NCBI RefSeq assembly: GCF_009856365.1
Contig: NZ_WMEX01000008.1
Coordinates: 124,001 to 188,000 of the forward strand
Length of the DNA: 64,000 nt
Direction: 5' to 3'
Origin: Vreelandella halophila
GTDB taxonomy: Bacteria > Pseudomonadota > Gammaproteobacteria > Pseudomonadales > Oleiphilaceae
Part shown: positions 29,190 to 52,298 of the stretch, piece after piece
Layout of the letters: each line of letters opens with the position of its first letter
How positions within the stretch are numbered: position 1 is the first letter of the stretch
Translations under genes and position numbers: made by a program
The notes under the pieces: generated by a model
What the model was told of the DNA's origin: nothing
The model's database searches: none
What the model saw: the letters and a program-made list of their open reading frames with translations, nothing else

Positions 29190-29207
29190 ATTACTCCCGA
29201 TGAAGGC

Positions 29208-35000: not shown

Positions 35001-36200
35001 TTACTGGCTCTGGAGCCACCGGAGCAGTCGGCCGCGCTCCTCCTCGCTCATTTCCGTCTGGTTTCCAAGTGGCATATACCCGGAGCTGATCGCCGTCAGA
35101 GATCGGCTCCGGTGGTTGAGCAGGTCTGCCTCCGACTCGAAAACCAGGCCCGCTGGTGGCGCCTGGAACCCTCCCATGGTGGGCTCTCTGGCATGACATC
35201 CCGAACAGTGCTCGGCGACCATGGCACTTGCAGAATCACTACTGACCGGCGAGGCAGCCGCACCATCATTCTTTTCGGCGATGCCTGGCCCATGCTCAGC
35301 AAAAGCGGTCAGGAGCGCGACACATATCAGCGCCAGCCCGGCTCCAACCAGAACGCCAGGTCGGCTTTGCCCCTGGTGTCGAAGGTTGAAGAAGTGCCGA
35401 ATCCAGGCCAGCAGAGCACCGACAACCACCAACAAGAACCACGCATACTCACCGCCGTAAAGGAAGGGATAGTGATTGCTCAGCATCGCGAATACGACGG
35501 GCAGTGTCAGATAATTGTTATGCGTCGAACGCAGTTTGGCGAAGCGCGCCCGCTCCGGATCAGGCTCCCGTCCCGCACCGACATCCGCGACGAAAGCCTT
35601 CTGTGCGGGAATAATGCCCCAAAAAACGTTGCCCGCCATCCAGGTACCGATCAGGGCCCCCATGTGAATGTAGGCAGCACGCGCCGAGAACAGCTGGAAA
35701 GCCAGCCAGCTCGCCAGGCTCAGCGTTACCAGTAGCGCCACTGCCAGGGTGCCTGCCCTCCGGCCCAGCGCACTGCGAACGAGGGTCTCGTAGACCAACT
35801 GGCCCGCTGCGAGAAAGCAGATGCTGCCAGCAATCGCGGCCGCTGGGGATTGGAGCCAGGTACCGTTTCCAACCAGATAGGACTGGGCCTGGACGTAATA
35901 GAGCAGCACGAGCAGCCCGGACCCTGTCAGCCAAGTGGTATAGGCTTCCCATTTGAACCAGTGGAGGGTCTGTGGCATGCGGGGTGGAGCGAGTCGGTAC
36001 TTGCTGATCTCATAGATACCCCCACCATGGATCGACCAAAGATCCCCCTTAACTCCCCGGTCCCGTTTATTGCGGGGAGGTTCCTCGAGGCTCAGGTCAA
36101 GCCAGATGAAGTAGAACGAAGCCCCGATCCAGGCAATGGCAGCTACTACGTGAAAAAGCCGGAATCCTGCATTAAGCCACTCCAACATCATTCCCTGCAT
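35001..36200 (-). CDS. puuD: Urate hydroxylase PuuD (membrane urate oxidase with C-terminal cytochrome c)
   Basis: This 399-residue protein has about eight TM helices over residues 1-300 with conserved HVVAAIAWIGASFYFIWLD, HGGGIYEISKY and HWFKWEAYTTW. The C-terminal soluble domain (about 325-399) has a CSGCH c-type heme motif and MPLGNQTEMS with a possible Met ligand. This matches bacterial PuuD, which oxidises urate to 5-hydroxyisourate and passes electrons to the respiratory chain instead of making peroxide. It is the last gene of the xdhABC-uraD-uraH-guaD-puuD operon, and its ATG overlaps the guaD stop (TGATG). The product is used by UraH. Confidence 0.9.
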   Translation of the reverse strand: MQGMMLEWLNAGFRLFHVVAAIAWIGASFYFIWLDLSLEEPPRNKRDRGVKGDLWSIHGGGIYEISKYRLAPPRMPQTLHWFKWEAYTTWLTGSGLLVLLYYVQAQSYLVGNGTWLQSPAAAIAGSICFLAAGQLVYETLVRSALGRRAGTLAVALLVTLSLASWLAFQLFSARAAYIHMGALIGTWMAGNVFWGIIPAQKAFVADVGAGREPDPERARFAKLRSTHNNYLTLPVVFAMLSNHYPFLYGGEYAWFLLVVVGALLAWIRHFFNLRHQGQSRPGVLVGAGLALICVALLTAFAEHGPGIAEKNDGAAASPVSSDSASAMVAEHCSGCHAREPTMGGFQAPPAGLVFESEADLLNHRSRSLTAISSGYMPLGNQTEMSEEERGRLLRWLQSQ

Positions 36201-37549
36201 CAGGCACTCTCCCGTTCCAGTTGGTCGCGCTGGAAGACAGGCACTCCCTGAATATAGGTCGCGGCAATATTGCGTTCGTCTCCGAGCATCATCAGTGCAA
36301 AAAGGACTTCGTCCAGACTCCGTGCCCTTTCCTGGCGCTGTTTCTGGACCTGCGAGACACCAGGATCGACCAGGATGAAGTCAGCCTCCTTCCCCGACTC
36401 AAAGTTGCCAATACGATCATCCAGCGCGAGGGTTCGGGCATTGCCGAGCGTGGCCATGTAAAGACCAATCAGTGGGTGCAATGGCTGGCCCTGGATCTGA
36501 AGCACCTTGTACGCCTCGGCCAGCGTCTCCAGAAGGGAAAAACTGGTTCCTCCACCGACGTCAGTGGCTACCCCTACCCCAATACCCGCCTCTTCCGTTG
36601 CAGCAAGATCGAAAAGGCCACTCCCTAGAAAAAGGTTGGAGGTGGGGCAGAAGGCAATCCGGGATCCTGTCTCCCCCAAACGCCCGCGCTCCCGCTCGCT
36701 GAGGTGGATCCCGTGCCCGAAGACACTCCTTGGGCCCAGCAATCCGTAACTATCGTAGACATCCAGATAGTCCCGGGCTTCCGGAAACAGCGACCCAACC
36801 CAGGCAATCTCGCCCCTGTTCTCGGACAGGTGCGTCTGGAGATAGACACCCTCGTATTCACGCAGCAGCCGGCCGGCAGCGGCCAGCTGTTCGCGGGAGC
36901 TGGTTGGTGCAAACCGCGGTGTAACGGCGTAATCCAGACGTCCCCTTCCATGCCAACGCTCAATCAGACTGCGCGTATCCGCAACCCCGCTGGCCACTGT
37001 GTCGCGAAGCCCCTGTGGCGCGTTGCGGTCCATCATCACCTTACCAGCGACCATTCTTAGATTGCGTTCAAGAGCCGCCTCAAAAAATGCCTCCGTAGAC
37101 TGCGGGAATATGGTCGTATAGACCATCGCCGTTGTGGTACCGCTCTCCAGGAGCAGATCCAGAAATTCACTGGCCCGGATCCGCCCATGCTCAGGGTCCC
37201 GGAACGCCTGTTCTGCGGGAAAGGTGTATTGGTTGAGCCAGTCGATGAGCTGTTCCCCGTAGGAAGCAATCACCCCCGTCTGCGGATAATGGATATGCGG
37301 GTCAATCAGACCCGGCATCAGCAGCTTGTCGGGGTAATGCTCACACTGCTCGAGTGCCAGGCCCTGCCGACTGAGATCAGCAGCGCTACCCAGGGTTTCG
37401 ACATGCCCATCACGCACCACAAGCACCCCATCCGGGAAGTATTCATAACCACCGCCTGACACCGGATCCGGCCTTGCCGTAAAGTGCAGTATTGGCGCTC
37501 GGAAGACCCTGAACGAAGTGCCCATCTGTTGATGACCCATAAAACTCAA
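36200..37549 (-). CDS. guaD: Guanine deaminase
   Basis: This 449-residue amidohydrolase is of GuaD type. Metal ligands: PGLIDPHIHYPQ near residue 80 (HxH), QTHLSEN, GHGIHLS and TDVGGGTSFS (Asp). Guanine-pocket features APTSSREQL and PTSNLFLGSGLFD fit. It converts guanine to xanthine and ammonia, feeding XDH from the same operon. It starts in an ATGA overlap with the uraH stop. Cytoplasmic. Confidence 0.92.
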   Translation of the reverse strand: MSFMGHQQMGTSFRVFRAPILHFTARPDPVSGGGYEYFPDGVLVVRDGHVETLGSAADLSRQGLALEQCEHYPDKLLMPGLIDPHIHYPQTGVIASYGEQLIDWLNQYTFPAEQAFRDPEHGRIRASEFLDLLLESGTTTAMVYTTIFPQSTEAFFEAALERNLRMVAGKVMMDRNAPQGLRDTVASGVADTRSLIERWHGRGRLDYAVTPRFAPTSSREQLAAAGRLLREYEGVYLQTHLSENRGEIAWVGSLFPEARDYLDVYDSYGLLGPRSVFGHGIHLSERERGRLGETGSRIAFCPTSNLFLGSGLFDLAATEEAGIGVGVATDVGGGTSFSLLETLAEAYKVLQIQGQPLHPLIGLYMATLGNARTLALDDRIGNFESGKEADFILVDPGVSQVQKQRQERARSLDEVLFALMMLGDERNIAATYIQGVPVFQRDQLERESA

Positions 37550-37884
37550 CTTCCCCTGTAGGTGGAGTAACCGAACGCATTCATCAGCAGTGGCACGTGA
37601 TAGTGCTCATCCGGACGCTCAATCCGGAATGCAATCGGTATGCGGGTATAGAAACTGTCTTCACCACGCGCTTTGAACCAGTCACCCACCTCGAACACCA
37701 GCTGGTATTCACCGGATACCAGCTCGAAATCGGTGCTCCACTCGTCGACCCGTCCATCAGGATTCGTGGTGGCCTGAGACAGAACCCCACCATCGGGGCC
37801 GTAGAGCACAACAGTGACACCAGCCGCCGGGCGTCCTGTGCCCAGATTGAGAACATGGGTGCTGATGGAGGCTTTACTCGTCAT
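37546..37884 (-). CDS. uraH: 5-Hydroxyisourate hydrolase
   Basis: The protein has 112 residues from the ATG at 37884; a longer frame to 37956 overlaps uraD too far. Transthyretin-like signature motifs: ISTHVLNLGTGRPAAGV at the N-terminus with the catalytic His, an internal FKARGEDSFYTRIPI, HYHVPLL, and the C-terminal YRGS tetrapeptide diagnostic of HIU hydrolases. No TAT or signal sequence, so it acts in the cytoplasm on the PuuD product, giving OHCU for UraD. It overlaps uraD by 11 bases. Confidence 0.93.
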   Translation of the reverse strand: MTSKASISTHVLNLGTGRPAAGVTVVLYGPDGGVLSQATTNPDGRVDEWSTDFELVSGEYQLVFEVGDWFKARGEDSFYTRIPIAFRIERPDEHYHVPLLMNAFGYSTYRGS

Positions 37885-38392
37885 GACCTTCTCCCGTGTC
37901 CGACAGAGCCCGCTGAAGGCGCAATTGATTGATGGCGCCCTGCTCCCGGGCTCCATTGATGATTTCGGTACCCGTGGGGTTATCGATCCGAGCCTTCAGG
38001 GCGGCAAGCATCTCGTCTGCCGACTTGCCGGTGGCGCAGATAATGAAGATGAAGCCGTGGCGCTGTTCGTACAGCAGGTTGAGTTCGTACAACTGCTCAA
38101 GCGTTGCCTCACTGGTCTCCAGGACCTGACCCTGTTCATGGCCTGTTGCACCAGAGAACTTTTCACGCAACGCTTCCATATCGCCAATACGGGCATGCCC
38201 GGAAAACGCCTCCAGAATCTCGGCTCGCGACGACTGGGACCAAAACTCGTCGGCCTTATCCAGCAGGCTCGCGATGCTGGCGAAGGGTCTGGCGAGTACC
38301 ATGCGGGTTGCCCACCGCTCGCAATGGCAGCATTCATGAAACATGTCGAATGCCGCCCTTTGAGTAAGTACGTTGAGTTCATCCAGGGTCAT
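37874..38392 (-). CDS. uraD: OHCU decarboxylase
   Basis: The 172 residues match the UraD family: MTLDELNVL, FHECCHCERWA, catalytic His in HARIGD (family usually HPRIGD), and the C-terminal substrate region YEQRHGFIFIICATGKSADE. It converts OHCU to S-allantoin and so completes urate to allantoin with PuuD and UraH. It overlaps xdhC upstream by 4 bases. Confidence 0.92.
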   Translation of the reverse strand: MTLDELNVLTQRAAFDMFHECCHCERWATRMVLARPFASIASLLDKADEFWSQSSRAEILEAFSGHARIGDMEALREKFSGATGHEQGQVLETSEATLEQLYELNLLYEQRHGFIFIICATGKSADEMLAALKARIDNPTGTEIINGAREQGAINQLRLQRALSDTGEGHDE

Positions 38393-39234
38393 TCCATTTG
38401 CTCTCCGTTCAGGACCGACTTGATCTCTCTCCAGGTCGTGGAAACGCCTGTTGGGCGTTCATGCCTCTGGTAGTAAAGCGACTGCAGCTGAGCAGCGATG
38501 GAAACCGCTACTTCCATGGGGTATTTGCCCTCGACACCTTCCAGACCAATAGGGCACTGGATACGACGTATCGCCTCGCCACTGAACCCTTCACGCGATA
38601 ATCTGGCTCGGAACCGCTCAGCCTTGGTCCGCGAGCCGATCAGGCCCGTGAATGACCATCGATAGTCGGTAAGCAACCGACAGCAAAGGGAAAAGTCCAG
38701 GCCGTGATCATGGGTCAACACGATTACCCAGGTGTTATCAGGGAGGGTATCCAGTGCGCTCACGGGATTGTCGTCGATGGCCATGCGGGCATTGGGAGGC
38801 ATCGATTCAGGCGCCAGCTCAGGCCTTGAGTCCACTACGGTAACCTGGCAAGGGAGACCAGCCAGGATGCCCAACAATGCCTGCCCCACATGCCCGGCCC
38901 CAAATACAGCCACCTGCCAGTCCCGGCAAGGAATGCACTCAAGCATGACCGTCAGATTGCCACCGCAGCACTGCGCCGCCTGGGCTCCCAACGGAAAGGG
39001 CTCCAGACGCTGACAGCCCTGACCCGCCGCCAGCAGTTCCCTGGCTCTCTGCGTCACCAGCAACTCGAATCGACCCCCTCCGATGGTGTCGTAGGTCTGA
39101 TCCGCAGTGATCACCATCTTGCTTCCGCCATCACGGGGAGTTGATCCCTGAGTATTGACCACGGTTGCGATCACATAGGCATGGCCAGCGTGCATGCACT
39201 GGGTTATGGCCTGATGCCAGGACATGACATTCAT
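38389..39234 (-). CDS. xdhC: Xanthine dehydrogenase accessory protein XdhC
   Basis: The protein has 281 residues from the ATG at 39234, in an ATGA overlap with xdhB. N-terminal XdhC domain (YVIATVVNTQGSTPRDGGSK) and C-terminal Rossmann domain with VAVFGAGHVGQALLGIL. XdhC binds molybdenum cofactor, helps its sulfuration and inserts it into XdhB. Position directly after xdhAB is standard. Confidence 0.92.
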   Translation of the reverse strand: MNVMSWHQAITQCMHAGHAYVIATVVNTQGSTPRDGGSKMVITADQTYDTIGGGRFELLVTQRARELLAAGQGCQRLEPFPLGAQAAQCCGGNLTVMLECIPCRDWQVAVFGAGHVGQALLGILAGLPCQVTVVDSRPELAPESMPPNARMAIDDNPVSALDTLPDNTWVIVLTHDHGLDFSLCCRLLTDYRWSFTGLIGSRTKAERFRARLSREGFSGEAIRRIQCPIGLEGVEGKYPMEVAVSIAAQLQSLYYQRHERPTGVSTTWREIKSVLNGEQME

Positions 39235-41558
39235 CCGTGCCCCCCTGAGTGCCCTTCCAGATTGAAGGTCTCGCACTCCCTCAAGGCCCAGTAAACACGC
39301 TCCGGTGTGGCAGGTGTATCAAGCCTAGGGCTGAAACGATAACGGGTGGTGGCGGCACAGGCGTCTCTCAGAGCCGCCCAGACCGAGATGGCCAGCATGA
39401 GCGGCGGCTCACCAACTGCCTTGGACAGGTAGATGGTCTCCTCATTGTTCGGCCGGTCGTAGAGGGAAACCCTGAAATCCGCCGGTACGTCGCCGGCAGT
39501 CGGTATCTTGTAGTTGGACGGGCTGTTGGAAATGACGCGGCCCTGGTTGTCCCAGAGGAGCTCCTCTGTGGTCAGCCACCCCATACCCTGGACGAATCCT
39601 CCTTCGATCTGGCCAATATCAATGGCCGGATTCAGGGAATCACCCACATCGTGCAGGATATCCACCCTTTCCACCCGATACTCACCGGTCGCGGTGTCCA
39701 CCGTTACCTCGGAGACCGCAGCGCCATTGGCGTAGTAGAAAAAGGGCCTGCCCTTGCCCTCCTCGCGGTTATAGTGAATCTTTGGGGTCCGGTAGAAGCC
39801 GGTCGCGAACAGCGGGACCCTGTGGGTATAGGCAAGCTCGGCAAACTCGCCCAGCGTCCACTCCCGTTCCCCGATCACGACAAGCCCTCGCTCAAATCTC
39901 ACAGCATCAGGCTCAACCCCGAATTCTGAAGCGGCAAACTCACAGAGCACTCCCCTGACCCGTTGGCAGGCATCCCGAGCCGCCATGCCATTGAGATCGC
40001 TCCCCGAGGAGGCCGCCGTAGCCGAGGTGTTGGGAATCTTGTCGGTCCGGGTCGAGGTCACCATCACCTGGTCTCGAGAAACCCCGAACTCGGAGGCGAC
40101 CACCTGCTGGACCTTGGTGAACAGGCCCTGCCCCATCTCCGTGCCACCGTGATTGATCATCAGGCTGCCGTCGGTATAAAGCTGCAGCAGAGCGCCCGCC
40201 TGATTAAGATGCTTGACCGTAAATGAAATCCCAAACTTCACCGGCGTCAGAGCCAGCCCCTTCTTCAGATAGCGATGTTTCTGGTTGAACGCCTCGATCC
40301 CGGCCCGGCGACCGCGGTAGTCCGAGTCCGCTTCAAGCCGCTCCACCAGTTCCGGCAACACATGCTGCTCTACCGTCTGGCCGTAAGGGGTTTCATCCCG
40401 CCCGGGCGAATAAAGGTTCCGTTTCCGGACATCCAGCGGATCCTGGCCGGTGGCGCGCGCAATGTCCTCGATTACGGTTTCAATCGCCATCATGCCCTGG
40501 GGTCCGCCGAACCCACGGAAGGCGGTGTTCGAGACCGTATGGGTACGACATCGCAGCCCCTCGATTCGCGCTGTGTTGAGGAAATAGGCGTTGTCCGCGT
40601 GAAACATGGCGCGGTCCACGATTCCCTGGGAAAGATCCGCGGAATAGCCACATTTGCCGGCGAGCATCAGGTCAAGCCCATGGATCACCCCCTGATCATC
40701 GAACCCGACGCTCCAGCGGTTCAGGAAATCATGACGCTTACCGGTCTGAACCATGTCATCACGGCGAGGCATCCGATAACGCACCGACCGCCCGAGACGA
40801 TGGGCGAACAGGGCCGTCATGCAGGCGATCGGTCCCGCCTGGGTTTCCTTGCCGCCGAAACCGCCTCCCATACGCCGGACCTCCGCTACGACCCGGTTAA
40901 AAGGGATATCGAGGACCTCCGCGACCAAATGCTGGATCTCGGTCGGATGCTGGGTGGAAGCGATCACGTGAATGCCCCCATCCTCGGTAGGCTCCGCCTG
41001 ACCAACCTGCCCCTCCAGATAGAAATGTTCCTGGCCACGGACATAGAGCTCACCGTTAAGACGCTGGGGAGCCGCCGAGATCTCAGCGGAAACGTCGCCC
41101 ATACGCATCTCATGGGGTGGAAGTACGTGCGCATCGGCCGCCAGCGCGTCCTCGATTGATAGCTGCGCCGGCAGCGGTTCATAGCCGATCCGGGCTTCGG
41201 CCACCGCGCGCTGTGCCACCTCCATACTGACCGCGGCGACCGCGAATACGGGCTGCCCAACGAACTCGACTACCTCTCCAGCCAGCAGGGGATCACCGTC
41301 GAATACTGGTGCGACATCCACCTTTCCCGGAATATCCGCCTGGGTGACAACATCGAGCACGCCCGGGTAGCGCCGCACATGCTCAAGGTCCAGATGCGTG
41401 ATCCGGGCATGCGGGTGGGGTGATTTGCCCGTGGCGATGTGAGCCATTCCCGGCATCACCGGCAGATCATCGATGTAGCGGGCGCTGCCACAGACGTGTT
41501 TGCGCGCAGACTCGTGGGGGGAGGCTTTGCCAGCCGCCCTTTCCGGTTGCTCAGCCAT
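39231..41558 (-). CDS. xdhB: Xanthine dehydrogenase, molybdopterin subunit XdhB
   Basis: The 775 residues from the ATG at 41558 overlap the xdhA stop by 8 bases. Aldehyde oxidase/xanthine dehydrogenase a/b hammerhead about 15-125, then molybdopterin-binding domains. Diagnostic segments: VRRMGGGFGGKETQ, NTAFRGFGGPQGM, GGTEMGQGLFTKVQQV and AVGEPPLML, the last containing the catalytic Glu. It oxidises hypoxanthine and xanthine to urate with XdhA. The pair works in the cytoplasm. Confidence 0.94.
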   Translation of the reverse strand: MAEQPERAAGKASPHESARKHVCGSARYIDDLPVMPGMAHIATGKSPHPHARITHLDLEHVRRYPGVLDVVTQADIPGKVDVAPVFDGDPLLAGEVVEFVGQPVFAVAAVSMEVAQRAVAEARIGYEPLPAQLSIEDALAADAHVLPPHEMRMGDVSAEISAAPQRLNGELYVRGQEHFYLEGQVGQAEPTEDGGIHVIASTQHPTEIQHLVAEVLDIPFNRVVAEVRRMGGGFGGKETQAGPIACMTALFAHRLGRSVRYRMPRRDDMVQTGKRHDFLNRWSVGFDDQGVIHGLDLMLAGKCGYSADLSQGIVDRAMFHADNAYFLNTARIEGLRCRTHTVSNTAFRGFGGPQGMMAIETVIEDIARATGQDPLDVRKRNLYSPGRDETPYGQTVEQHVLPELVERLEADSDYRGRRAGIEAFNQKHRYLKKGLALTPVKFGISFTVKHLNQAGALLQLYTDGSLMINHGGTEMGQGLFTKVQQVVASEFGVSRDQVMVTSTRTDKIPNTSATAASSGSDLNGMAARDACQRVRGVLCEFAASEFGVEPDAVRFERGLVVIGEREWTLGEFAELAYTHRVPLFATGFYRTPKIHYNREEGKGRPFFYYANGAAVSEVTVDTATGEYRVERVDILHDVGDSLNPAIDIGQIEGGFVQGMGWLTTEELLWDNQGRVISNSPSNYKIPTAGDVPADFRVSLYDRPNNEETIYLSKAVGEPPLMLAISVWAALRDACAATTRYRFSPRLDTPATPERVYWALRECETFNLEGHSGGHG

Positions 41559-43029
41559 GATGATGCAGCTCCTCTTTGGGTTCCTCGCCGCTGGCAAATG
41601 ATTTGAGCCCGCGACAGGCGCGGCCAAACAGGCTGGCAGCCATCACCCGGCGATAGTCGGCGGAGGCCCGCACATCCCCAATGGGTGAGAACGTTTCATT
41701 CAACTCGGCACAGGCCCGCTCTATCGTGAGGTCGTCCAACGTCGGAATCGCAGTTCCTCCATAATTGATCACCTGCTCACATCGCCAGGCCCGTGCCGGC
41801 ACCGCCGCCATACCGCCGTAGGCCACGCGCAGCCCGGTTTCGGCATCCCACAGAAAAGCCCCCATGACGGTCGTGATGTCATCCTCGTAACGCTTTGAGA
41901 GCTTGTGCAGGCGAAGCCACTGACCGGGCCGAGGCCGATCGATCCGTACCAGGGCGATGTACTCACCCGGCTGCAGTGTTGTCTGCTTGTAGTCCTGGTA
42001 GAATTCACACAGAGGTTCACTTCGGCTGTTTCCCCTGGCATCCCGGATCACCAGCTCGGCATCCATCACCAGCAGAAACGGGGGCATATCAGCAATGGGG
42101 GAGGCATTGCCGATATTCCCGCCGATGGTCCCGCGATTACGGATCTGTCGGGACCCCAGACGCTCAAGCATTCGGACCAGCTCAGGTGCAATGTCCGCAA
42201 ACGCGGTCTCCATCTCCGTGTAGGTGACAGCCGCGCCTATATCGATGTGCTCCGGGCCGAGCTCGATTCTCCGCAACGACTCGATCCGGTTGAGATCAAT
42301 AAGCTTGGGTAAGCGCCTGAAAAGCTGGGTGTGCTCCAGCATCAGGTCGGTTCCCCCTGCCACCAGCCGCGCCTCGGGGTTAGCCGACAGAAGACGTTGG
42401 AGTTCGGCTTCTGTCCCCGGCTGCCAGAACGAACACGGCTCGTTTGGGGTTTCCATGCTGCCCGATAACGGTGCACCACTCACCGGCTCTGTTCCATTCC
42501 TGGTCAAAAAGTCAGGATTGTTGAGAGCTCGTATTCCGGCTTCAACAATCGGTCGATAGCCGGTACAACGACACAGGTTCCCGGAGATGGCATCCAGAAC
42601 CGCCCGCCGGGGATCTTCCGGCATCCCCCTTTCCAGTGTCTCTGAGTGAAGCGCGGCCAACGACATCACGAACCCCGGCGTACAGAAACCGCATTGGGAG
42701 CCGTCGCATGCCACCATGGCTTCCTGAACCGGATGAAGCTCTCCGTGGACGCCATCGCCACCCAGACCTTCTACGGTTGTAACAGACTGATCTCTAAGAC
42801 TTTCAACAGGGCATATGCAGCTATTCACCGTGTAAGAACGGGGTTTTTCCCCACGTTCATCATGGACCATGACGGTGCAGGCGCCACAGTCTCCAGACGC
42901 GCATCCCTCCTTTGTCCCGGTCAGCCCACACTGGTTCCTGAGAAATGCCAGAAGTGTCCTGTCCGGGGCTTCATCGCCGCTGTCGTATAGGCGGTTGTTG
43001 ACCTTGAGGCGCACGAAACGATCCCCCAC
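41551..43029 (-). CDS. xdhA: Xanthine dehydrogenase, FeS/FAD subunit XdhA
   Basis: This 492-residue protein has a plant-type 2Fe-2S domain at the N-terminus (C43, C48, C51 and C71), an all-helical 2Fe-2S domain with CGFCTPG and CRCTGYRPI near 110-150, and FAD-binding about 195-360 with VAGGTDLML and RNRGTIGGNIGNASPIAD. Electrons from XdhB pass to NAD+. It is the first gene of the leftward operon; a sigma-54 promoter match lies about 45-65 bases upstream of its ATG. Confidence 0.94.
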   Translation of the reverse strand: MGDRFVRLKVNNRLYDSGDEAPDRTLLAFLRNQCGLTGTKEGCASGDCGACTVMVHDERGEKPRSYTVNSCICPVESLRDQSVTTVEGLGGDGVHGELHPVQEAMVACDGSQCGFCTPGFVMSLAALHSETLERGMPEDPRRAVLDAISGNLCRCTGYRPIVEAGIRALNNPDFLTRNGTEPVSGAPLSGSMETPNEPCSFWQPGTEAELQRLLSANPEARLVAGGTDLMLEHTQLFRRLPKLIDLNRIESLRRIELGPEHIDIGAAVTYTEMETAFADIAPELVRMLERLGSRQIRNRGTIGGNIGNASPIADMPPFLLVMDAELVIRDARGNSRSEPLCEFYQDYKQTTLQPGEYIALVRIDRPRPGQWLRLHKLSKRYEDDITTVMGAFLWDAETGLRVAYGGMAAVPARAWRCEQVINYGGTAIPTLDDLTIERACAELNETFSPIGDVRASADYRRVMAASLFGRACRGLKSFASGEEPKEELHHHG

Positions 43030-43074
43030 GCAATGATTCCAATCGCAGTCTCATGACTGTTTTCCATCCTCTGC

Positions 43075-43094
43075 TTTGCAAATTTTTGGCCAAC
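43075..43094 (-). promoter_or_regulatory. Sigma-54 promoter of the xdhA-puuD operon
   Basis: The minus strand reads ttggccaaaaatttgcaaag: GG and GC are separated by exactly 10 bases, with TTGGC at -24 and TTGCA at -12. The predicted transcription start falls near 43065, giving a leader of about 36 bases before xdhA. Only the first -24 triplet deviates (TTGGCC for TTGGCA). Confidence 0.7.
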
Positions 43095-43141
43095 TAGACA
43101 GGTTATTAAAAAAGACTTCCGGGACAGATGATGCGAAGAAG

Positions 43142-43159
43142 CTGGCACATAGATTGCTT
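43142..43159 (+). promoter_or_regulatory. Sigma-54 promoter of the BMP-type ABC transporter operon
   Basis: ctggcacatagattgctt is a near-perfect -24/-12 element: TGGCAC, 5 bases, TTGC, with GG-N10-GC spacing. The ATPase ATG at 43196 lies about 27 bases after the predicted start site near 43169. It faces away from the xdhA promoter. Confidence 0.78.
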
Positions 43160-43195
43160 CCAGAACCGGAGTGTATTGTCCTGGTGGTCAGTTTT

Positions 43196-44743
43196 ATGGG
43201 AGCAACAGCATCGAGACGTCTGGAGTTGGTCGGCATCGCCAAGGCCTACCCTGGCTGCATTGCCAACGACCGGGTGGAAATGACCGTAAAACCCGGTGAG
43301 ATCCACGCCCTGGTGGGAGAGAACGGCGCGGGTAAGAGTACCCTCATGAAGATCATCTACGGGGTGGTCAAACCCGATGCCGGCCAGCTCATCTGGAACG
43401 ACCGTGAAACCCTGATCGAGGGGCCGGCTCATGCACGCAGGCTCGGCATGGGCATGGTCTTCCAGCATTTCTCACTTTTCCAGACCCTGACCGTGACAGA
43501 GAACATCGCTCTTTATCTTCCGCGGCAGGAATACGGCTCTCTCCGCCGCCTCCGCGACAGGATCCTGAGCGTTGGCGAGGCGTACGGGCTTGATATCAAT
43601 CCTGACCGGCATGTCCATACGCTCTCGGTCGGGGAGCAGCAACGCGTAGAGATTGTGCGCTGCCTGCTGCAGGAGATCCAACTGCTGATTCTGGACGAGC
43701 CCACGGCCGTGTTGACGCCTGGCGAAGTTACTCACTTGGTGAAAGTACTCAAGCAGCTGGCGAGTGAGGGCTGCAGCATTCTGTTCATCTCCCACAAGCT
43801 GGAGGAAGTCAGAACGCTCTGCGACCGCGCCACCATCCTGAGAGGCGGCAGAGTAACGGGTAGTTGCACCCCGGCGGAGACGACCTCGGAGCAGATATCA
43901 CGCATGATGCTGGGTGACGACCTGCATATTGAGAAAAGCATGGGGGTGGGCGCACCGGGTGACGACAGCCTCTCACTTGAAGGGGTATCCGTCTCACCTG
44001 GAGGAGCATTCGCCATTGCGCTCCACAGCATCGACCTCACGCTCCGGGCCGGCGAAATCACCGGTATTGCAGGGGTAGCCGGAAATGGTCAGGACGAACT
44101 TGTTGACCTCATCAATGGTGAACTTGCCCCTGACGCAGGCAAGCTGCTTTTGGATGGTCGGGATATGACTGCCGAAGGCGTCCTGGCCCGGCGACGGGCC
44201 GGCCTTGCGACCGTTCACGCGGACCGGCTCGGACGCGGCTCGATAGGGGCCATGTCCCTCACTGAGAACCGGCTCCTCACAGCTTATGTCACGGATTCCG
44301 ACGCCCACGGTTTTCTCCATTGGCGACCACTGACGGAGCGTACACGGGAGTTGATCCAGAATTACCAGGTCAAAGCATCCGGGCCTGATGACACGGCAGC
44401 CAGTCTTTCCGGAGGCAATCTCCAGAAATTCATCATCGGGCGTGAAATCGCCCAAGCGCCGAAGGTGCTTGTCTGCTTCTACCCCACCTGGGGAGTGGAT
44501 GTGGGTTCCGCCAACCGGATCCATGTGGAGCTGGCGCGGTTGCGTGATGAGGGCACGGCCATCCTGATCCTTACAGAAGACCTGGACGAACTCTATCTGC
44601 TTTGCGATCGCGTGGGCGCCATCTGTGGCGGCCAGCTTTCTCCTTTGAAACCCGGCCATGAGGTATCGATGGAAACCCTGGGTCAGTGGATGGCGGGGAC
44701 GTTCAGCGCCCCACAGACACAGGGAGTCCAAAATGCGCATTGA
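43196..44743 (+). CDS. ABC transporter, duplicated ATPase (nucleoside/purine importer)
   Basis: The ATG at 43196 is used because the sigma-54 promoter at 43142-43159 rules out the longer frame from 43076. The product has 515 residues and two ATP-binding domains: Walker A GENGAGKST in the first, signature TLSVGEQQRVEIV and Walker B LLILDEPTAVLTPGE. The second has a degenerate Walker A (GVAGNGQDEL) and signature LSGGNLQKFIIGRE. This tandem layout is typical of BMP-dependent nucleoside/purine ABC systems (YufO-like). It forms an operon with two permeases and the substrate-binding protein. Confidence 0.9.
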   Translation: MGATASRRLELVGIAKAYPGCIANDRVEMTVKPGEIHALVGENGAGKSTLMKIIYGVVKPDAGQLIWNDRETLIEGPAHARRLGMGMVFQHFSLFQTLTVTENIALYLPRQEYGSLRRLRDRILSVGEAYGLDINPDRHVHTLSVGEQQRVEIVRCLLQEIQLLILDEPTAVLTPGEVTHLVKVLKQLASEGCSILFISHKLEEVRTLCDRATILRGGRVTGSCTPAETTSEQISRMMLGDDLHIEKSMGVGAPGDDSLSLEGVSVSPGGAFAIALHSIDLTLRAGEITGIAGVAGNGQDELVDLINGELAPDAGKLLLDGRDMTAEGVLARRRAGLATVHADRLGRGSIGAMSLTENRLLTAYVTDSDAHGFLHWRPLTERTRELIQNYQVKASGPDDTAASLSGGNLQKFIIGREIAQAPKVLVCFYPTWGVDVGSANRIHVELARLRDEGTAILILTEDLDELYLLCDRVGAICGGQLSPLKPGHEVSMETLGQWMAGTFSAPQTQGVQNAH

Positions 44744-45836
44744 AGCCCGCCCAACCCCATCACCTACAATGCGCTACCTTTCTCCGTTACTCGCTCTCGG
44801 GCTGACACTCATAACCGGCGCCGCCATTTTTAGCGCCCTTGGAAAAGCGCCTCTCGCCAGCCTGCATGCGTTTTTCATAGAACCGGTTTCGACGGTTTAT
44901 GGGCTGTCAGAGCTTTTCGTGAAAGTGACTCCCCTACTGCTCTGTGCAACCGGCCTGACACTGTGTTTCCGAGCCAAGGTCTGGAACATCGGGGCTGAGG
45001 GCCAGTTCGTTTTCGGTGCCCTGATCGCGGGCGCGGTCTCGCTTCAGCTTGCCGATCACCAGGGGTTCTGGGTCCTCCCGGTAGTGATCGCAAGTGGGGT
45101 GCTCGCGGGCATGGCCTGGGCTGGGATCGCCGCCCTACTACTGACCCGGTTCCGGGCCCACGAAATCCTGACCACCATCATGCTCAACTACATCGCCATA
45201 CAACTTCTTCTCTGGAGTGTGCATGGTCCCCTCAAAAGCCCCTCGGGCTATAACTTCCCGGAGTCGGAACTGTTCAGCCCCCAGACTCTGCTGCCGACAC
45301 TCTGGGGTCAATACCGGGTCACGATCGCCATATTCATCGCCCTTCTCATGCTGGCGGTGGTCTGGACGGTCCTGAACCGAACACTTCTTGGCTACCAGAC
45401 ACGGGTTATGGGCGAGAACCGCCAGGCTGCCCGCTTCGCTGGATTCAACGGCAACCGGTTGATCTGGGTACTATTGCTTTTCAGCGGCGGTATGGCGGGA
45501 ATGGCGGGCGTTTCCGAAGTCAACGGCCCGGTTGGGCAACTAACCACCAACCTGGCGCTGGGCTACGGCTACACGGCCATCATTATCGTGTTCATGGGCC
45601 GGATGCACCCGCTGGGGGTACTGCTTGCGAGCCTGTTGCTCGGCCTAACCTATCTTGGCGGCGAGAATGCCCAGATGACACTGGGGCTGCCAAAATCGAT
45701 CACCGGCGTCTTTCAGGGGCTTCTCCTGTTCTTCCTGCTGGCCTGCGACTTCCTGATCTCCCATCGGATTGTACTGACGCCGATGCGGGGTCATCGGCCC
45801 TCCAACACCTCGACCCGGGAGGTGACGAGCTCATGA
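44733..45836 (+). CDS. ABC transporter permease (nucleoside/purine type), first
   Basis: The 367 residues from the ATG at 44733 overlap the ATPase by 11 bases. About eight to ten TM helices; the BPD_transp_2 family signature is visible as KVWNIGAEGQFVFGALIAG and ARFAGFNGNRLIWVLLLFSGG. Together with the second permease it forms the heterodimeric channel. Stop overlaps the next start (ATGA). Confidence 0.9.
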   Translation: MRIEARPTPSPTMRYLSPLLALGLTLITGAAIFSALGKAPLASLHAFFIEPVSTVYGLSELFVKVTPLLLCATGLTLCFRAKVWNIGAEGQFVFGALIAGAVSLQLADHQGFWVLPVVIASGVLAGMAWAGIAALLLTRFRAHEILTTIMLNYIAIQLLLWSVHGPLKSPSGYNFPESELFSPQTLLPTLWGQYRVTIAIFIALLMLAVVWTVLNRTLLGYQTRVMGENRQAARFAGFNGNRLIWVLLLFSGGMAGMAGVSEVNGPVGQLTTNLALGYGYTAIIIVFMGRMHPLGVLLASLLLGLTYLGGENAQMTLGLPKSITGVFQGLLLFFLLACDFLISHRIVLTPMRGHRPSNTSTREVTSS

Positions 45837-46756
45837 GTATGGACATCATCGAGAACATCCTGTTCGCCACTATACGAACCGGAACGCCCCTACTCCTGGT
45901 AGCACTGGGTGCCATGATTTCAGAACGCAGCGGTGTGCTGAACCTCGGGCAGGAAGGCATGATCCTGGTAGGCGCTGTCTGCGCCTTCATCGGCGCCTAC
46001 ACAACCGACAGCCTGCTCATCGGAGTAGCCAGCGGGCTCGCCTCCGGTGCCCTCTTCTCACTGATTTTCGCGGTCATTGCAATCAGCCTCGTGTCCAGTC
46101 AGATCGCCACCGGCCTGGCACTTACCATCTTCGGAACCGGCCTCAGCGCCTTCCTTGGCGTCGACTACGTTGGCCTGTCCATCGACGGTCTCGACGAGCA
46201 GCCGATCCCGCTGCTCCACAGTATTCCGCTGATCGGCAAGGCTTTCTTCGCCCAGGACCTGCTCGTTTACGGTGCTTTCATCCTTTTCGCCTCCATCTAT
46301 TACGTCATGAGCCGCACGCGCCTGGGGCTGATCATCCGTGCAGTCGGCGAAGCCCCAGCGGTCGCCCACAGCATGGGCTACCGGGTTATCCTGGTGCGCT
46401 ACGCAACGGTGATGTTCGGCGGCGCCATGGCGGGCCTCGGTGGCGCGTACCTGTCCCTGGCCTATACCCCGATGTGGACGGAGGGCATGTCGGCAGGGCG
46501 TGGCTGGATCGCTCTGGCACTGGTTGTTTTTGCAAGCTGGCGCACCGAACGGGTCCTGATCGGAGCCTGGCTTTTCGCCTTCGCCAGCATCCTTCACCTG
46601 GTCCTACAGGGTTTCGGATACGACATCTCTCCGAACCTACTGGCCATGCTCCCGTATCTGGCCACCATCATCGCCCTGGTCATGATGATGCAGCGCGCAG
46701 GCACCGCGCAGCTCGCGCCCCGTTCGCTGGGGCAACCTTACTACCCACAGAATTAG
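45833..46756 (+). CDS. ABC transporter permease (nucleoside/purine type), second
   Basis: This 307-residue BPD_transp_2 permease has about eight TM helices. Typical motifs are ISERSGVLNLGQEGMILVGA and GLIIRAVGEAPAVAHSMGY. It starts in ATGA overlap with the first permease. The pair lies between the ATPase and the binding protein. Confidence 0.9.
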   Translation: MSMDIIENILFATIRTGTPLLLVALGAMISERSGVLNLGQEGMILVGAVCAFIGAYTTDSLLIGVASGLASGALFSLIFAVIAISLVSSQIATGLALTIFGTGLSAFLGVDYVGLSIDGLDEQPIPLLHSIPLIGKAFFAQDLLVYGAFILFASIYYVMSRTRLGLIIRAVGEAPAVAHSMGYRVILVRYATVMFGGAMAGLGGAYLSLAYTPMWTEGMSAGRGWIALALVVFASWRTERVLIGAWLFAFASILHLVLQGFGYDISPNLLAMLPYLATIIALVMMMQRAGTAQLAPRSLGQPYYPQN

Positions 46757-46792: not shown

Positions 46793-47869
46793 ATGAAAGC
46801 ACCCACCCTTATCAGCCTGGGCCTGAGCGCGGCGCTGGCCCTCAGCAGTCCCCTGCACGCCGCAGAGGATCCCCTCAAAGTAGGCTTTGTCTATGTCAGC
46901 CCCATCGGTGACGCCGGCTGGACCTACATGCACGACCGCGCCCGCAAGATCGTCGACAAGGAATTCGGCGACCGGGTCGAAACCACCTATGTGGAGAGCG
47001 TTTCAGAGGGCTCAGACTCGCAGCGGGTCATCCGCAACCTCTCCGCCAATGGCCATGACCTCATATTCACCACCTCCTTCGGCTACATGAACCCAACCCT
47101 CCGGGTAGCCCGGCAGTTCCCCAATGTGCGTTACGAACACGCCACGGGTTATAAAACGGCGGAGAATGTCGGGAACTATCAGGCACGCGCCTATCAGGGT
47201 CGCTATCTGGCAGGCATGGCGGCTGGAGCCATGACCGAGACCGACACCATCGGCTATGTCGCTGGATTCCCAATCCCCGAGGTACTGCGCGGCATTAACG
47301 CATTCACTCTTGGCGTCCGGGAAGTGAATCCGGACGCCTCTGTAAGCGTCTCCTGGATCAACTCCTGGCATGACCCGGCCAAGGAGCGTGAGTCCGCAGC
47401 CAGCCTCATCCGTCAGGACGCGGACGTGCTGACCATGCACGCGGACTCCCCTGCGGTCGTGCAGGCGGCCCAAGACGAAGGAGTCTACGGCATCGGTTAC
47501 AATTCAAACATGAAATCCTATGGCCCGGACGCTCATCTCACATCGGTAATGATGCACTGGGAACCGATCTACCAGGAAAAGATTCAGGCGGTGCTGAATG
47601 ACAGCTGGGAGCCCGAATCAATCTGGTACGGGCTCTCCGAAGGCGTTGTCAAAATGGCTCCTATGCACTCGGATATCCCGGAAGCCGTTGTTGAACGGAT
47701 CAATACACATCGTGACGCCCTGATCAACGGCGACCGGGAGGTCTTCCAGGGTCCCATCAACAATCAGGATGGCGAGGAGATCGTTGCGAAAGGCGATGCG
47801 CTGAAGGATCAACAACTGCTTGAAATCAACTGGTATGTTGAGGGCATTGAGGGCAAACTTCCGAACTGA
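46793..47869 (+). CDS. BMP-family periplasmic substrate-binding protein
   Basis: The 358 residues begin with an Sec signal (MKAPTLISLGLSAALALSS then PLHA, cleavage before AEDP). There is no lipobox Cys, so the protein is soluble periplasmic. The mature part has GFVYVSPIGDAGWTYMHD, TTSFGYMNPTLRVARQFPN and ADSPAVVQAAQDEGVYGIGY, as in Bmp/Med nucleoside- or purine-binding proteins. Close neighbours for purine degradation suggest it binds nucleosides, guanine, xanthine or related bases. A clear GGAGG precedes the start. Confidence 0.9.
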   Translation: MKAPTLISLGLSAALALSSPLHAAEDPLKVGFVYVSPIGDAGWTYMHDRARKIVDKEFGDRVETTYVESVSEGSDSQRVIRNLSANGHDLIFTTSFGYMNPTLRVARQFPNVRYEHATGYKTAENVGNYQARAYQGRYLAGMAAGAMTETDTIGYVAGFPIPEVLRGINAFTLGVREVNPDASVSVSWINSWHDPAKERESAASLIRQDADVLTMHADSPAVVQAAQDEGVYGIGYNSNMKSYGPDAHLTSVMMHWEPIYQEKIQAVLNDSWEPESIWYGLSEGVVKMAPMHSDIPEAVVERINTHRDALINGDREVFQGPINNQDGEEIVAKGDALKDQQLLEINWYVEGIEGKLPN

Positions 47870-47894: not shown

Positions 47895-48617
47895 ATGCTG
47901 GAACGCAGAAAGGAATTCGATCCCAATGAGACCCCAACCGGCAAGTATCGGGCGGGGCGGATCCGTGACCGCAACCTGACTAACATCATCACGGCAGCCG
48001 AAGAGGAGTTCGTGCGCCAGGGGTATACCGGGACAAGCATCCAGGCGGTCGCTGACCGGGCCGGTATCCCCAAAGCCAACGTACATTACTACTTCAAGCG
48101 CAAGTCCTATCTCTACATCGCCGTCATTGAGAAACAGGTCAGGCTCTGGAACGACCTTCTGGATGAAGTCCGTGTAGAGGATGACCCCGCAACCGTTCTG
48201 GACAGCTTCATCCGACGGAAGGTGGAGCTGTCTTACACGCACCCCCGGGCGTCCAAACTCTTTGCCATGGAAGTCATTCAGGGCGCGCCTCATCTGCGTG
48301 ACTACATGCGGACCCAGATGCGCCAGTGGGTCCGGGACAAGGTCAGTGTGATGGAAACCTGGATGGAACAGGGCCGCATGGACCGCGTGGACCCGATGTA
48401 TCTGATCTTCCTGATATGGGCCTCTACCCAGCACTATGCTGACTTCGACATCCAGGTCCTCACCATCATGAACCGGGCCGAATACGAGCCAGACATGATC
48501 GAGGGGATCGCCGATTTCCTGAGCCAGATCATCCTGCGCGGATGCGGACTGGAACCACCCCAGCACGGAGGCCCTACCCTCTCCATCCATCAGGAGGGCA
48601 GTGGCAGCCATGACTGA
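47895..48617 (+). CDS. RutR-like TetR-family regulator
   Basis: This 240-residue protein has an N-terminal HTH (about 22-68: TSIQAVADRAGIPKANVHYY). Its C-terminal ligand domain contains YLIFLIWASTQHYADF, a hallmark of RutR, the pyrimidine/purine-responsive regulator. Gene order between transporter and deaminase suggests it senses a base, possibly uracil, thymine, guanine or xanthine, and controls this locus. A perfect 7-5-7 palindrome at 52299-52317 is one candidate site. Confidence 0.85.
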   Translation: MLERRKEFDPNETPTGKYRAGRIRDRNLTNIITAAEEEFVRQGYTGTSIQAVADRAGIPKANVHYYFKRKSYLYIAVIEKQVRLWNDLLDEVRVEDDPATVLDSFIRRKVELSYTHPRASKLFAMEVIQGAPHLRDYMRTQMRQWVRDKVSVMETWMEQGRMDRVDPMYLIFLIWASTQHYADFDIQVLTIMNRAEYEPDMIEGIADFLSQIILRGCGLEPPQHGGPTLSIHQEGSGSHD

Positions 48618-49974
48618 GACCCTATGGCTGCGACACCCGGCGGTATGCTGGACGGGCAATGGGGCCAATGCCGATAACGGCCTGGTCGTTGAGGGCAGTC
48701 GAATCCGGGAACTCGTGCCAGCCGGACATGAGCCCTCTGGCCACTATGCACACACCTTCGACGCGTCAGGTCATGTCCTGCTGCCAGGGCTGATCAACAC
48801 CCACCATCACTTCTACCAGACGCTAACCCGGGCCTTGCCGCGCGCCCTGAACAAGCCCCTGTTTCCGTGGCTGGAAAGTCTTTACCCCGTCTGGGCGAAT
48901 CTGGACGACGACGCGATCCACGCTGCAACAGAACTGGCGTTGTCGGAACTGCTGCTGTCAGGCTGTACGACCGCAGCGGACCACCATTACGTCTTCAGCC
49001 AGCTGATACCTCGCGCCATTGATGTCCAGGTGGCTGCGGCAAAACGTATGGGCGCCCGCGTGACACTGACACGAGGTTCCATGAGTTTTGGGGAGCTGGC
49101 CGGCGGGCTCCCCCCGGAGAGTGTGATCGAGCCCGAGCCGGTCATTCTTTCGGAAAGCGCGCGATTGATTCGTGCCTATCACGACCCCGATCCGGAGGCG
49201 CTGTGCCGGATTGCCCTTGCCCCCTGCTCCCCGTTCTCCGTGACGCCGGAGTTGATGCGGGACACAGCCAATCTGGCCGAAGAACACGATGTGTTATTGC
49301 ATACCCACCTGGGAGAGACCCGGGATGAGACCGACTTCTGCATCCAGTCCCATGGTCAGCGCCCCCTCGATTACCTCGAGGATGTGGGCTGGCTGACCCC
49401 ACGCACCTGGCTCGCGCACGGAATCCACTTCACTGACGACGAAATCCGACGTATCGCCGACTCGGGGACGGCCGTGTGCCATTGCCCCACTTCCAATATG
49501 CTGCTGGGATCCGGTCATTTTCGAGGATGCGACATGCACCGTGCAGGCGTGCGGGTGGGACTCGGCGTGGATGGCTCAGCGTCCAACGACGGTTCCAATA
49601 TGATTCAGGAGGCGCGCCAGGCGATGCTGATGCAGAAGCTCACCTATGGCGCAGACCAGTTCAGTCACCTGGACGCGCTCGCCCTGGCCACCAGCGGGGG
49701 TGCCCAACTCCTGGGCCGCCCGGAACTGGGCCAACTAGCCCCCGGGAAACAGGCGGATCTGGCGCTGTTCAGCCTGGATGAACCCCGTTTCTCGGGCCAC
49801 GCCGATCCCCTGGCGGCCCTACTGCTCTGCGGCGCCCACAGGGCCGATCACGTCATGGTGGGTGGGCAATGGAAAGTCCGCCATGGCGGGCTCGTGGATC
49901 ATGACATCCAAGAGATCATGGCGCGCCACAAGCAGGCCGCGGAGCGCCTCATCCGGCGCGCCGCTCCAGCCTAA
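48610..49974 (+). CDS. 8-Oxoguanine deaminase-like amidohydrolase
   Basis: The 454 residues from the ATG at 48610 overlap the regulator gene by 8 bases. Metal-binding segments: PGLINTHHHFYQTLTRA (HxH), HTHLGETRDE, AHGIHFTDDE and GLGVDGSASNDGSN. The family includes 8-oxoguanine deaminase and hydroxydechloroatrazine ethylaminohydrolase; the purine context favours a deaminase of 8-oxoguanine, isoguanine-like or related purines. With guaD it would channel damaged and normal guanine to urate or xanthine. It ends the rightward operon and overlaps the convergent nucleoside hydrolase stop by 4 bases. Confidence 0.82.
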   Translation: MTETLWLRHPAVCWTGNGANADNGLVVEGSRIRELVPAGHEPSGHYAHTFDASGHVLLPGLINTHHHFYQTLTRALPRALNKPLFPWLESLYPVWANLDDDAIHAATELALSELLLSGCTTAADHHYVFSQLIPRAIDVQVAAAKRMGARVTLTRGSMSFGELAGGLPPESVIEPEPVILSESARLIRAYHDPDPEALCRIALAPCSPFSVTPELMRDTANLAEEHDVLLHTHLGETRDETDFCIQSHGQRPLDYLEDVGWLTPRTWLAHGIHFTDDEIRRIADSGTAVCHCPTSNMLLGSGHFRGCDMHRAGVRVGLGVDGSASNDGSNMIQEARQAMLMQKLTYGADQFSHLDALALATSGGAQLLGRPELGQLAPGKQADLALFSLDEPRFSGHADPLAALLLCGAHRADHVMVGGQWKVRHGGLVDHDIQEIMARHKQAAERLIRRAAPA

Positions 49975-51073: not shown

Positions 51074-52114
51074 TTATTCAGTTCTTGGAACGTTCGTCTG
51101 GTACCGGTCCCAGTCATCTACCAGAGTCTGAACCACACGGTTACCGAGCTGAAAAGCCGCCTCATAGGCCGGTTCCCCATTATCCGGGTAAGGCGCGGTT
51201 GTGCTCCAGGCTGCCGTCTTGTCATCGGGTGGGAAGGTATAATTGCTCACCGTCCGCAGGACCATCACACGCTCGGGATCCACACGGTCTTCACGGGCCA
51301 GGCGATGCAAAGCCGTCAGAGTGCCGCTGTCCTCCATGTTGCTGGTTACCATATTGGCATCGTCGCCGGCCTGGAGCTTCACCCAATCGTTGGCCCAGTC
51401 ATTCAGATAGTCGCCATGCCAGTAGGTACTGGCGCTCAGCGTGTCACCCAGCGCCACTGACGGTGGCTTCCGGGCCTCCGGGTAATTCTCGTACATCGCC
51501 CGGAACTCCTTCATGGCGGGCGTATCCTCAACCGCATGACCACGGGTCAGGTCATAGGCCCACTCAGCCAAGCTGCCATTGAGGTCGAACGAGATGGTGT
51601 CAACAGTCCAACCAGTCGCTTCCTGATTGGGCTCCTTGGCGCCCAGTGGGATCAGGCCATAAGCCCAGTCCTCAGGCATTTCCCGGGCATCAATCTCGTA
51701 CAGGAGGTCGCCGTCCACCACATGACGGGCCCAGACTCCGGTCCCAAGGGAGACATCCTCGGGATCACCACCGCCAATCCCAGACACCAGCCAGTAGGCA
51801 TCGGAAAGGTCGAAGCGTTCATCCAGGCCCAGAGCCATGATGGAAGCGGTCGCGTTGGTCACGCCACCGCCGGTACAGATGGCCAGTATTCCTTCATCAT
51901 TGACATGCAGATCGAACTGGCCGAGCGGAAAATCCACAGGCTCAAGATCCAGTCGCTGGACCCAGCGATGGTATTCACCGGATTCCTCACCGTTGATCTC
52001 GCCATTCTCGAAATGGGTTACAACGACCGCCTTGATCTCAGTCGCGGCAATACCCGGGGTGGATACACTTATAAGACCCGCTGCCAACAACGGGGAAAAC
52101 CTGATACGGATCAT
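51074..52114 (-). CDS. NUP-family purine nucleoside protein (permease/phosphorylase-like), exported
   Basis: This 346-residue protein has a Sec signal of about 23 residues (LLAAGLISVSTPGIAA). The body matches the purine nucleoside permease family (PF06516): VVTHFENGEINGEESGEY, CTGGGVTNATASIMALG, YWLVSGIGGGDPEDVSLG and NMEDSGTLTAL. Despite the family name the fold resembles a nucleoside phosphorylase with no TM helices, so a periplasmic nucleoside-binding or -cleaving role is likely. It is the first gene after a sigma-54 promoter match; a paralogue as a lipoprotein is at 61383-62474. Confidence 0.85.
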   Translation of the reverse strand: MIRIRFSPLLAAGLISVSTPGIAATEIKAVVVTHFENGEINGEESGEYHRWVQRLDLEPVDFPLGQFDLHVNDEGILAICTGGGVTNATASIMALGLDERFDLSDAYWLVSGIGGGDPEDVSLGTGVWARHVVDGDLLYEIDAREMPEDWAYGLIPLGAKEPNQEATGWTVDTISFDLNGSLAEWAYDLTRGHAVEDTPAMKEFRAMYENYPEARKPPSVALGDTLSASTYWHGDYLNDWANDWVKLQAGDDANMVTSNMEDSGTLTALHRLAREDRVDPERVMVLRTVSNYTFPPDDKTAAWSTTAPYPDNGEPAYEAAFQLGNRVVQTLVDDWDRYQTNVPRTE

Positions 52115-52147: not shown

Positions 52148-52165
52148 TGCAAAATCCTGTCCATT
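52148..52165 (-). promoter_or_regulatory. Sigma-54 promoter of the NUP-nucleoside hydrolase operon
   Basis: The minus strand reads aatggacaggattttgca: TGGACA at -24, TTGCA at -12 and GG-N10-GC spacing. It lies about 35-50 bases upstream of the NUP gene ATG. Confidence 0.65.
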
Positions 52166-52298
52166 TGGATAGCCTTATCGAGAAACAACAATGGAATGCG
52201 GCAATATGCGAGCAAGGCCGTACCGAATTAAGCCAGAAACCCTCTCTTAAAACCACGATATTGAACCAATAATGGGCGAATTTGATAAAAAAGCTCCA

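Follow-up and report, generated by a model that had tools for sequence, protein, structure and literature searches.

Genes on either side of the xdhA gap

The window (the whole 64,000-nt stretch of Vreelandella halophila DNA that was analysed) includes a short intergenic gap from which two runs of genes lead away in opposite directions. Judging from gene spacing, each run probably forms one operon. The gap and the genes of the two runs were:

43030-43195: intergenic gap of 166 bases between xdhA (minus strand) and an ABC transporter ATPase gene (plus strand)
41551-43029, minus: xdhA, xanthine dehydrogenase small subunit (GTG start at 43029), first gene of the minus-strand run
39231-41627, minus: xdhB, molybdopterin-binding subunit (TIGR02965)
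38389-39276, minus: xdhC (TIGR02964)
37874-38392, minus: OHCU decarboxylase (PF09349)
37546-37956, minus: hydroxyisourate hydrolase (TIGR02962)
36200-37549, minus: guanine deaminase (TIGR02967)
35001-36200, minus: urate oxidase of the membrane, haem-containing type (Urate_ox_N, PF06181, 403.3 bits)
43196-44743, plus: ABC transporter ATPase (ATG start at 43196), opening the plus-strand run
44658-45836, plus: ABC permease 1
45833-46756, plus: ABC permease 2 (PF02653)
46793-47869, plus: BMP-type binding protein, AtzT-related
47895-48617, plus: RutR-like TetR regulator, predicted repressor
48601-49974, plus: amidohydrolase within the ABC gene run (PF01979)

The xdhA product scored 457.6 bits against TIGR02963, slightly below the cut-off of 467. 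The urate oxidase, which we take to be the enzyme named PuuD, carries a CxxCH motif close to its C-terminus and had no match among the NCBIfam models. For the BMP-type protein, the closest solved structures were AtzT (6pi5, E = 6.9e-112, residues 24-357) and 3s99. Guanine was found bound to AtzT, according to PMC6834077. Since the BMP-type protein is related to this guanine-holding protein, "nucleobase importer" is a fair label for the ABC system, which is AtzT-like and is predicted to import nucleobases.

Two outward-facing sigma-54-type elements

The first-pass annotation had placed a pair of -24/-12 elements, facing away from each other, in the 166-base gap. Both are present, with exact GG-N10-GC spacing:

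43077-43092, minus: A element, directed toward xdhA; core (43092-43077) TGGCCAAAAATTTGCA
43143-43158, plus: B element, directed toward the ABC operon; core TGGCACATAGATTGCT

Transcription would be predicted to start at ~43066 (minus strand) for xdhA and at ~43169 (plus strand) for the ABC importer. The plus element differs from TGGCACG-N4-TTGCW at one position and the minus element at three, the xdhA -24 box fitting the consensus poorly at positions 5 and 6. Matches with up to three mismatches were rarer in the window (80) than in shuffled sequences (mean 111), so that by mismatch count alone the minus element is meaningless. We also scored both strands of the 64 kb with a sigma-54 matrix whose weights were set by hand. 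The plus element scored 18.1 out of a maximum of 19.0 and ranked first in the window; the minus element scored 13.0 and ranked fourth. Among 5000 dinucleotide shuffles of the gap, the plus score was reached in one and the minus score in 25, and both strands attained at least the minus score in a single shuffle. Across the whole genome, the strict sigma-54 pattern occurred at 19 places, compared to 15 for a reversed-pattern control. Pattern matching by itself is weak evidence for sigma-54 elements and, with the genome-wide count this close to the control, it is conservation that decides whether the elements are real.

We assessed conservation in the family to which the genome belongs. XdhA relatives (E-value of 1e-60 or better) were found in 40 of the 163 family genomes, own genome included, and 39 upstream stretches were compared, leaving out the window's own match, G008:C120 and G161. 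The ABC ATPase gene was divergent from xdhA in 35 of the 39, which together with the window gave 36 gaps, with gene starts extrapolated from tblastn. A sigma-54-like element scoring at least 14.9 was present in 35 of these, and the divergent A/B pair that had been picked out from a single genome was kept in 32. The distance between the T's of the two -24 boxes was 39-51 bp in the 32 gaps, 39-42 bp in 30 of them and 51 bp in the window and in G001; the gaps lacking the usual pair were L106, L115, L130 and L137. In the relatives, the A element reads TGG[TC]CAG-N4-TTGC[AT] and the B element mostly TGGCAAG-NNN-ATTGCT. Apart from the two elements, an alignment of 27 gaps (genera g11, g12 and g15, and the window) showed little conservation except at two palindromes, one located at the xdhA element and the other beyond the ABC element. 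This conservation supports the presence in the gap of two putative divergent sigma-54-type promoters. Many of the loci come from one genus (g12) and are not independent events; as most loci share ancestry, the locus counts overstate independence.

The arrangement of the gap varied between genera. In four of the 32 gaps with the pair, all from genus g5 (L111, L113, L114 and L119), the module was inverted as a whole, and the element fused to the operator faces the ABC gene. The gaps of L115 and L130 (genus g4), ~470-500 bp long, have two to three RutR-like palindromes each, including two perfect ones in L130, and no well-formed xdhA-side sigma-54 element at the usual spacing.

Candidate RutR-like operators and a predicted repressor encoded in the importer operon

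The two palindromes of the alignment correspond to two candidate operators in the window, both missed in the first-pass annotation, whose regulatory account was incomplete in this respect:

43087-43100: operator O, candidate, degenerate RutR-like, TGGCCAACTAGACA, three mismatches from TGACCANNTGGTCA; overlaps the xdhA -24 box
43177-43190: operator C, candidate, TGTCCTGGTGGTCA, two mismatches; slightly downstream of the predicted ABC start at ~43169

The conserved palindrome reads TGACCA-NN-TGGTCA, and one of its halves is the -24 box of the xdhA-side element. In the window, the -24 box of the minus element (TGGCCA) doubles as a half-site of operator O. We take the palindrome to resemble the E. 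coli RutR box. In PMC10891134, the target of RutR is given as a palindrome of about 16 bp.

The palindrome was linked to the presence of a TetR gene. We analysed 160 xdhA loci, comprising 80 of the order (drawn from 117 genomes with a match) and 80 named ones, a few loci occurring in both sets. A RutR-like gene lies directly opposite xdhA in 30 of the 160. The palindrome (TGACCANNTGGTCA, up to two mismatches) was detected in all 30 of these TetR-opposite loci, in 17 of the 22 loci with the ABC gene opposite, and in 39 of the 108 with another or an unidentified upstream neighbour. An xdhA-directed sigma-54 element was absent from 22 of the 30 TetR-opposite loci, and the palindrome therefore tracks the TetR gene and not sigma-54. 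In family f1, the TetR gene resides inside the ABC operon in all nine stretches that were long enough, and also in G001; this count leaves out L262, the stretch of which ends too early, and L263, which had no ABC match. Within the own genome neither operator pattern was enriched, either in one scan (41/36 matches, compared to 56/42 for the control) or in a second (5/6 compared to 4/5).

The TetR protein is a relative of RutR and not RutR itself: it scored 175.8 bits against the RutR equivalog TIGR03613 (cut-off 368) and 150.7 bits against PRK15008 (cut-off 230). Its closest solved structures were those of RutR (6z1b and 3loc). The window protein retains equivalents of RutR W77, W167, Q171, Q179 and K52 and has Phe in place of Y97; the residues of the uracil pocket and their roles are those given in PMC10891134. 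The kept base-stacking pocket fits a nucleobase-type ligand, and the accompanying genes suggest that this ligand may be a purine.

The overlap between operator and -24 box was assessed in a pool of 196 loci (193 distinct), of which 117 distinct loci had the palindrome with up to two mismatches, providing 344 usable half-sites. In 64 cases TTGCW began 11 bases downstream of a half-site, which is the spacing of a sigma-54 element, compared to 19 cases for all other offsets from 0 to 21 combined. A fused element was found in 59 of the 117 palindrome loci: in 35 of the 42 in which a strong sigma-54 element was also present separately, and in 24 of the 75 in which none was. The fused loci span nine families of one order (f1, f6, f7, f8, f16, f28, f36, f37 and f38) and include the genera Alteromonas, Oceanobacter and Marinobacterium. 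The window and G001 were not counted as fused because operator O has three mismatches and the test allowed two. The candidate operator and the putative xdhA promoter are nonetheless fused in the window, where they share the -24 bases.

The geometry of the module was compared outside the family as well. The -24 boxes were 50-51 bp apart in L155, L156, L183, L265, L334 and L342 (the gap sequence of L155 being identical to that of L264) and 38-42 bp apart in L204, L340 and L343. Of these, L155 comes from Marinimicrobium agarilyticum and L204 from Oceanobacter kriegii. Longer spacings were found in L226 (65 bp), L286 (66 bp), L274 (84 bp) and L266 (142 bp), and the longest in L280 (223 bp), L276 (349 bp) and L302 (363 bp). 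The xdhA-directed and ABC-directed elements overlap and converge in L174, L303, L328, L329 and L336, an arrangement in which the two promoters would exclude each other. At loci with both operators identified, these were mostly 74-78 bp apart; the distance was 90-91 bp in Marinimicrobium and the own genus, 97 bp in L265 and 64 bp in L343.

The two main spacing classes of the -24 boxes (38-42 and 50-51 bp) differ by about one helical turn, although not all pairs comply. A Rayleigh test on 13 hand-picked lineages yielded a p-value of ~0.0007 at 10.5 bp, which rose to 0.004 with the addition of L286 (66 bp). With L286 and seven long pairs (L266, L274, L276, L280, L302, L106 and L137) added, the p-value was 0.13 at 10.5 bp and 0.0055 at 11.0 bp. 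The converging loci L174, L303, L328, L329 and L336, as well as L130 and three near relatives of lineages already included (L155, L183 and L204), were excluded from these sets. Since the p-value weakens once long pairs are included, helical phasing is a lead for close pairs only.

These observations raise the possibility, which we regard as rather doubtful, that the gap contains a portable module. Such a module would be a rigid unit in which operator O is fused to one of two sigma-54 promoters 38-42 or 50-51 bp apart, the second promoter lies on the same helical face and a second operator is found at a set distance, and the whole unit could flip between two operons as in genus g5. Because its operator shares the -24 bases, the repressor of such a unit would keep RpoN holoenzyme off the DNA rather than block a bound closed complex, and the poised sigma-54 state would exist only with purine present.

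We also mapped operators and sigma-54-type sites elsewhere in the genome. The 19 strict sites were informative only once sorted by position, and by our reading seven of them lie close before a gene of the same direction. These genes encode FlhA (FHIPEP); a NasT-type response regulator with an ANTAR domain, which precedes an NMT1_2 gene for a nitrate-type binding protein; an allophanate hydrolase-like (atzF-like) amidase; the ABC operon described here; a phosphorylase; a TonB-plug receptor (L061); and an adenosine-deaminase-family protein (L062). An eighth strict hit (L051) is near fliM. An operator with up to three mismatches was found within ~80 bp of all four strict sites before purine-type genes (ABC, phosphorylase, L061 and L062), compared to three of the 15 others, and no such operator was found within that distance at the flhA, nasT-like, atzF-like and glnA promoters. 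L061 and L062 (G000:C18:194107 and 195904) are located directly past the window end, and each is accompanied by a RutR-like operator and a sigma-54 site of the strict pattern. It is our guess that the TonB-plug receptor might take up purines.

A second divergent sigma-54-like pair, situated at 52148-52375 between genes for a NUP-family protein and a nucleoside phosphorylase, has operators of its own:

52148-52163, minus: second composite element, directed toward the NUP gene (51074-52114), TGGACAGGATTTTGCA
52360-52375, plus: sigma-54-type element directed toward the phosphorylase gene (52414-53265), matrix rank 2 in the window

The NUP-directed element is weak (matrix rank 23), and an operator at 52158-52171 covers its -24 box. 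Another operator (52332-52345) begins 28 bases before the phosphorylase element. The phosphorylase gene was found in two of the 163 family genomes, this one and a very close relative.

Two further regions of the window were recorded. The third best sigma-54-like site is at 29175-29190 (plus strand, TGGCACGGAGCTTGAA), and the genes after it include those for a nitrilase-type hydrolase, a radical SAM protein, an AIR-synthase-like protein and a flavin oxidoreductase; we presume that this run resembles a Nit1C cluster. The minus strand of 55251-63781 encodes a second NUP-family protein, an amidase, a gamma-glutamyltranspeptidase, a TauE-type exporter, a class V aminotransferase and an M20 peptidase.

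Control of the two operons

According to the first-pass annotation, RpoN and an enhancer-binding protein such as NtrC would activate purine oxidation and import together. The promoters, the RpoN and NtrC genes and the identities of the operons agree with this claim, whereas the search for NtrC sites does not support it as stated. The genome has an RpoN gene, an NtrC equivalog (L031) and 13 proteins with strong PF00158 matches, 10 of which were named by a family scan. We searched for NtrC sites with a pattern that we take to be TGCACC-N5-GGTGCA. No site with up to two mismatches was detected in any of the 36 intergenic xdhA/ABC gaps. In the own genus, a site with one mismatch is located at 42863-42879, inside xdhA and 280 bp upstream of the -24 box of the ABC promoter; at the 34 gaps of other genera, the initial 300 bases of xdhA contained none with up to two mismatches. 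As a candidate NtrC enhancer this site was set aside, since it falls in conserved codons of an FeS motif and is missing in other genera. The glnA promoter of this genome, which served as a control, scored 16.6 and had an NtrC-like site (two mismatches) 92 bp upstream. NtrC-like sites were also found in the ntrBC region and, with two mismatches, 80 bp before the adenosine-deaminase-like promoter. A search of the 80 named loci, which covered up to 21 kb at each with 12 valid queries, detected no enhancer-binding-protein gene at an E-value of 1e-30 or better; the lack of a dedicated activator gene near xdh is as expected if the activator is global. PMC5491218 lists xdhAB and the urate oxidase genes of B. 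cenocepacia as joint sigma-54/NtrC targets, and PMC8443478 describes a P. stutzeri ntrC mutant as impaired on uric acid. Given this published work, NtrC is a plausible activator.

Our preferred reading, to which we assign a probability of roughly 0.7, is that the two operons are under an AND gate. RpoN holoenzyme would occupy both -24/-12 elements, and an enhancer-binding protein, most likely NtrC, would activate it when nitrogen is limiting. The RutR-like repressor encoded in the importer operon would bind the two palindromic operators. As a half-site of operator O is also the -24 box, we infer that repressor and holoenzyme could not occupy the xdhA promoter together; operator C would lie across the region where transcription of the importer starts. 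The repressor would then be released from the operators by a nucleobase or a related purine. Under such two-input control, purine import and oxidation would need both nitrogen shortage and purine and, with the operators present, nitrogen limitation alone would probably be insufficient.

Three alternatives dispense with one of the two inputs or with the promoters themselves. The model as first proposed, in which nitrogen limitation turns on both operons through RpoN and NtrC and no local repressor takes part, agrees with the conserved sigma-54 elements, the NtrC gene, the one-mismatch site of the own genus and the reports on B. cenocepacia (PMC5491218) and P. stutzeri (PMC8443478). However, this model leaves the operators unaccounted for, none of the 36 gaps has an NtrC site, and the site of the own genus is a stretch of FeS codons absent from other genera; we consider it unlikely. 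We give slightly less credence still to the converse for the xdhA side, namely that only the operator is real, the minus element being a half-site plus a chance TTGCA and the xdhA promoter being elsewhere. The atypical -24 box (TGGYCA) overlapping the palindrome, and the 22 TetR-opposite loci with an operator and no xdhA-directed element, would suit this explanation, but the excess of TTGCW at the sigma-54 offset (64 compared to 19) and the company that fusion keeps with strong separate sigma-54 elements (35/42 compared to 24/75) argue against it. Chance resemblance of both elements in an AT-rich gap would be in line with the strict genome count near its control and with three-mismatch matches below the chance level, and is made very improbable by the shuffle tests and by conservation.

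The alternative with the best standing concerns only the identity of the activator: the promoters and the repressor would be as in the AND gate, and activation would come from another of the 13 candidates or proceed with no fixed enhancer site. The number of strong PF00158 matches and the missing conserved NtrC site speak for it, whereas no enhancer-binding-protein gene was detected at 1e-30 or better in the 80 named xdh loci and an NtrC-like site does precede the adenosine-deaminase-like promoter. It is a real possibility, if clearly a minority one.

Sigma-54 promoters are normally controlled by an activator, with the holoenzyme waiting in a closed complex. If the AND gate is correct, the operator within the -24 box would offer a naturally occurring example of a sigma-54 promoter controlled through binding of the holoenzyme. 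The locus also suggests a purine sensor within the RutR subgroup, and the spacing classes yield a mechanical prediction on promoter spacing.

Several known systems share parts of this arrangement. In Streptomyces coelicolor, the xdh genes are repressed by a TetR-family protein, XdhR (PMC6627660, PMC7057948), which answers to ppGpp; the window protein is set apart from it by its RutR-like character, its base-stacking pocket and the sigma-54-type promoters. The XdhR of Cupriavidus necator provides xanthine-responsive control of xdh but is of LysR type, according to PMC7057948. In B. cenocepacia, purine oxidation belongs to the NtrC and sigma-54 regulons, as would be the case in the window, whereas a TetR regulator, a fused operator and a divergent importer go unmentioned in the available text of PMC5491218. 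Among the open-access matches listed, no title or abstract opening described an operator fused in this way, purine genes as its target, the two-way layout or the flip.

The closest likeness is to the E. coli rutA-rutR locus, where genes for nitrogen scavenging are likewise found with a sigma-54 promoter and a regulator of the RutR family. The rutA-rutR gap contains a sigma-54-like site, TGGCATCCGCTTTGCA (score 14.9), and a RutR-like box at three mismatches, and rutA/rutR is among the RpoN promoters listed in PMC8743547. The rut genes serve pyrimidines and those of the window purines. In E. coli the box is unfused, ~65 bp upstream of the -24 box, whereas in the window the operator lies on it; in E. 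coli the divergent gene is rutR, whereas in the window catabolic and transport operons lead both ways from the sigma-54 elements. The arrangement is of a kind already known, a variant of the E. coli rut logic, and if our reading is correct it would extend the combination of RutR and nitrogen control from pyrimidines to purines.
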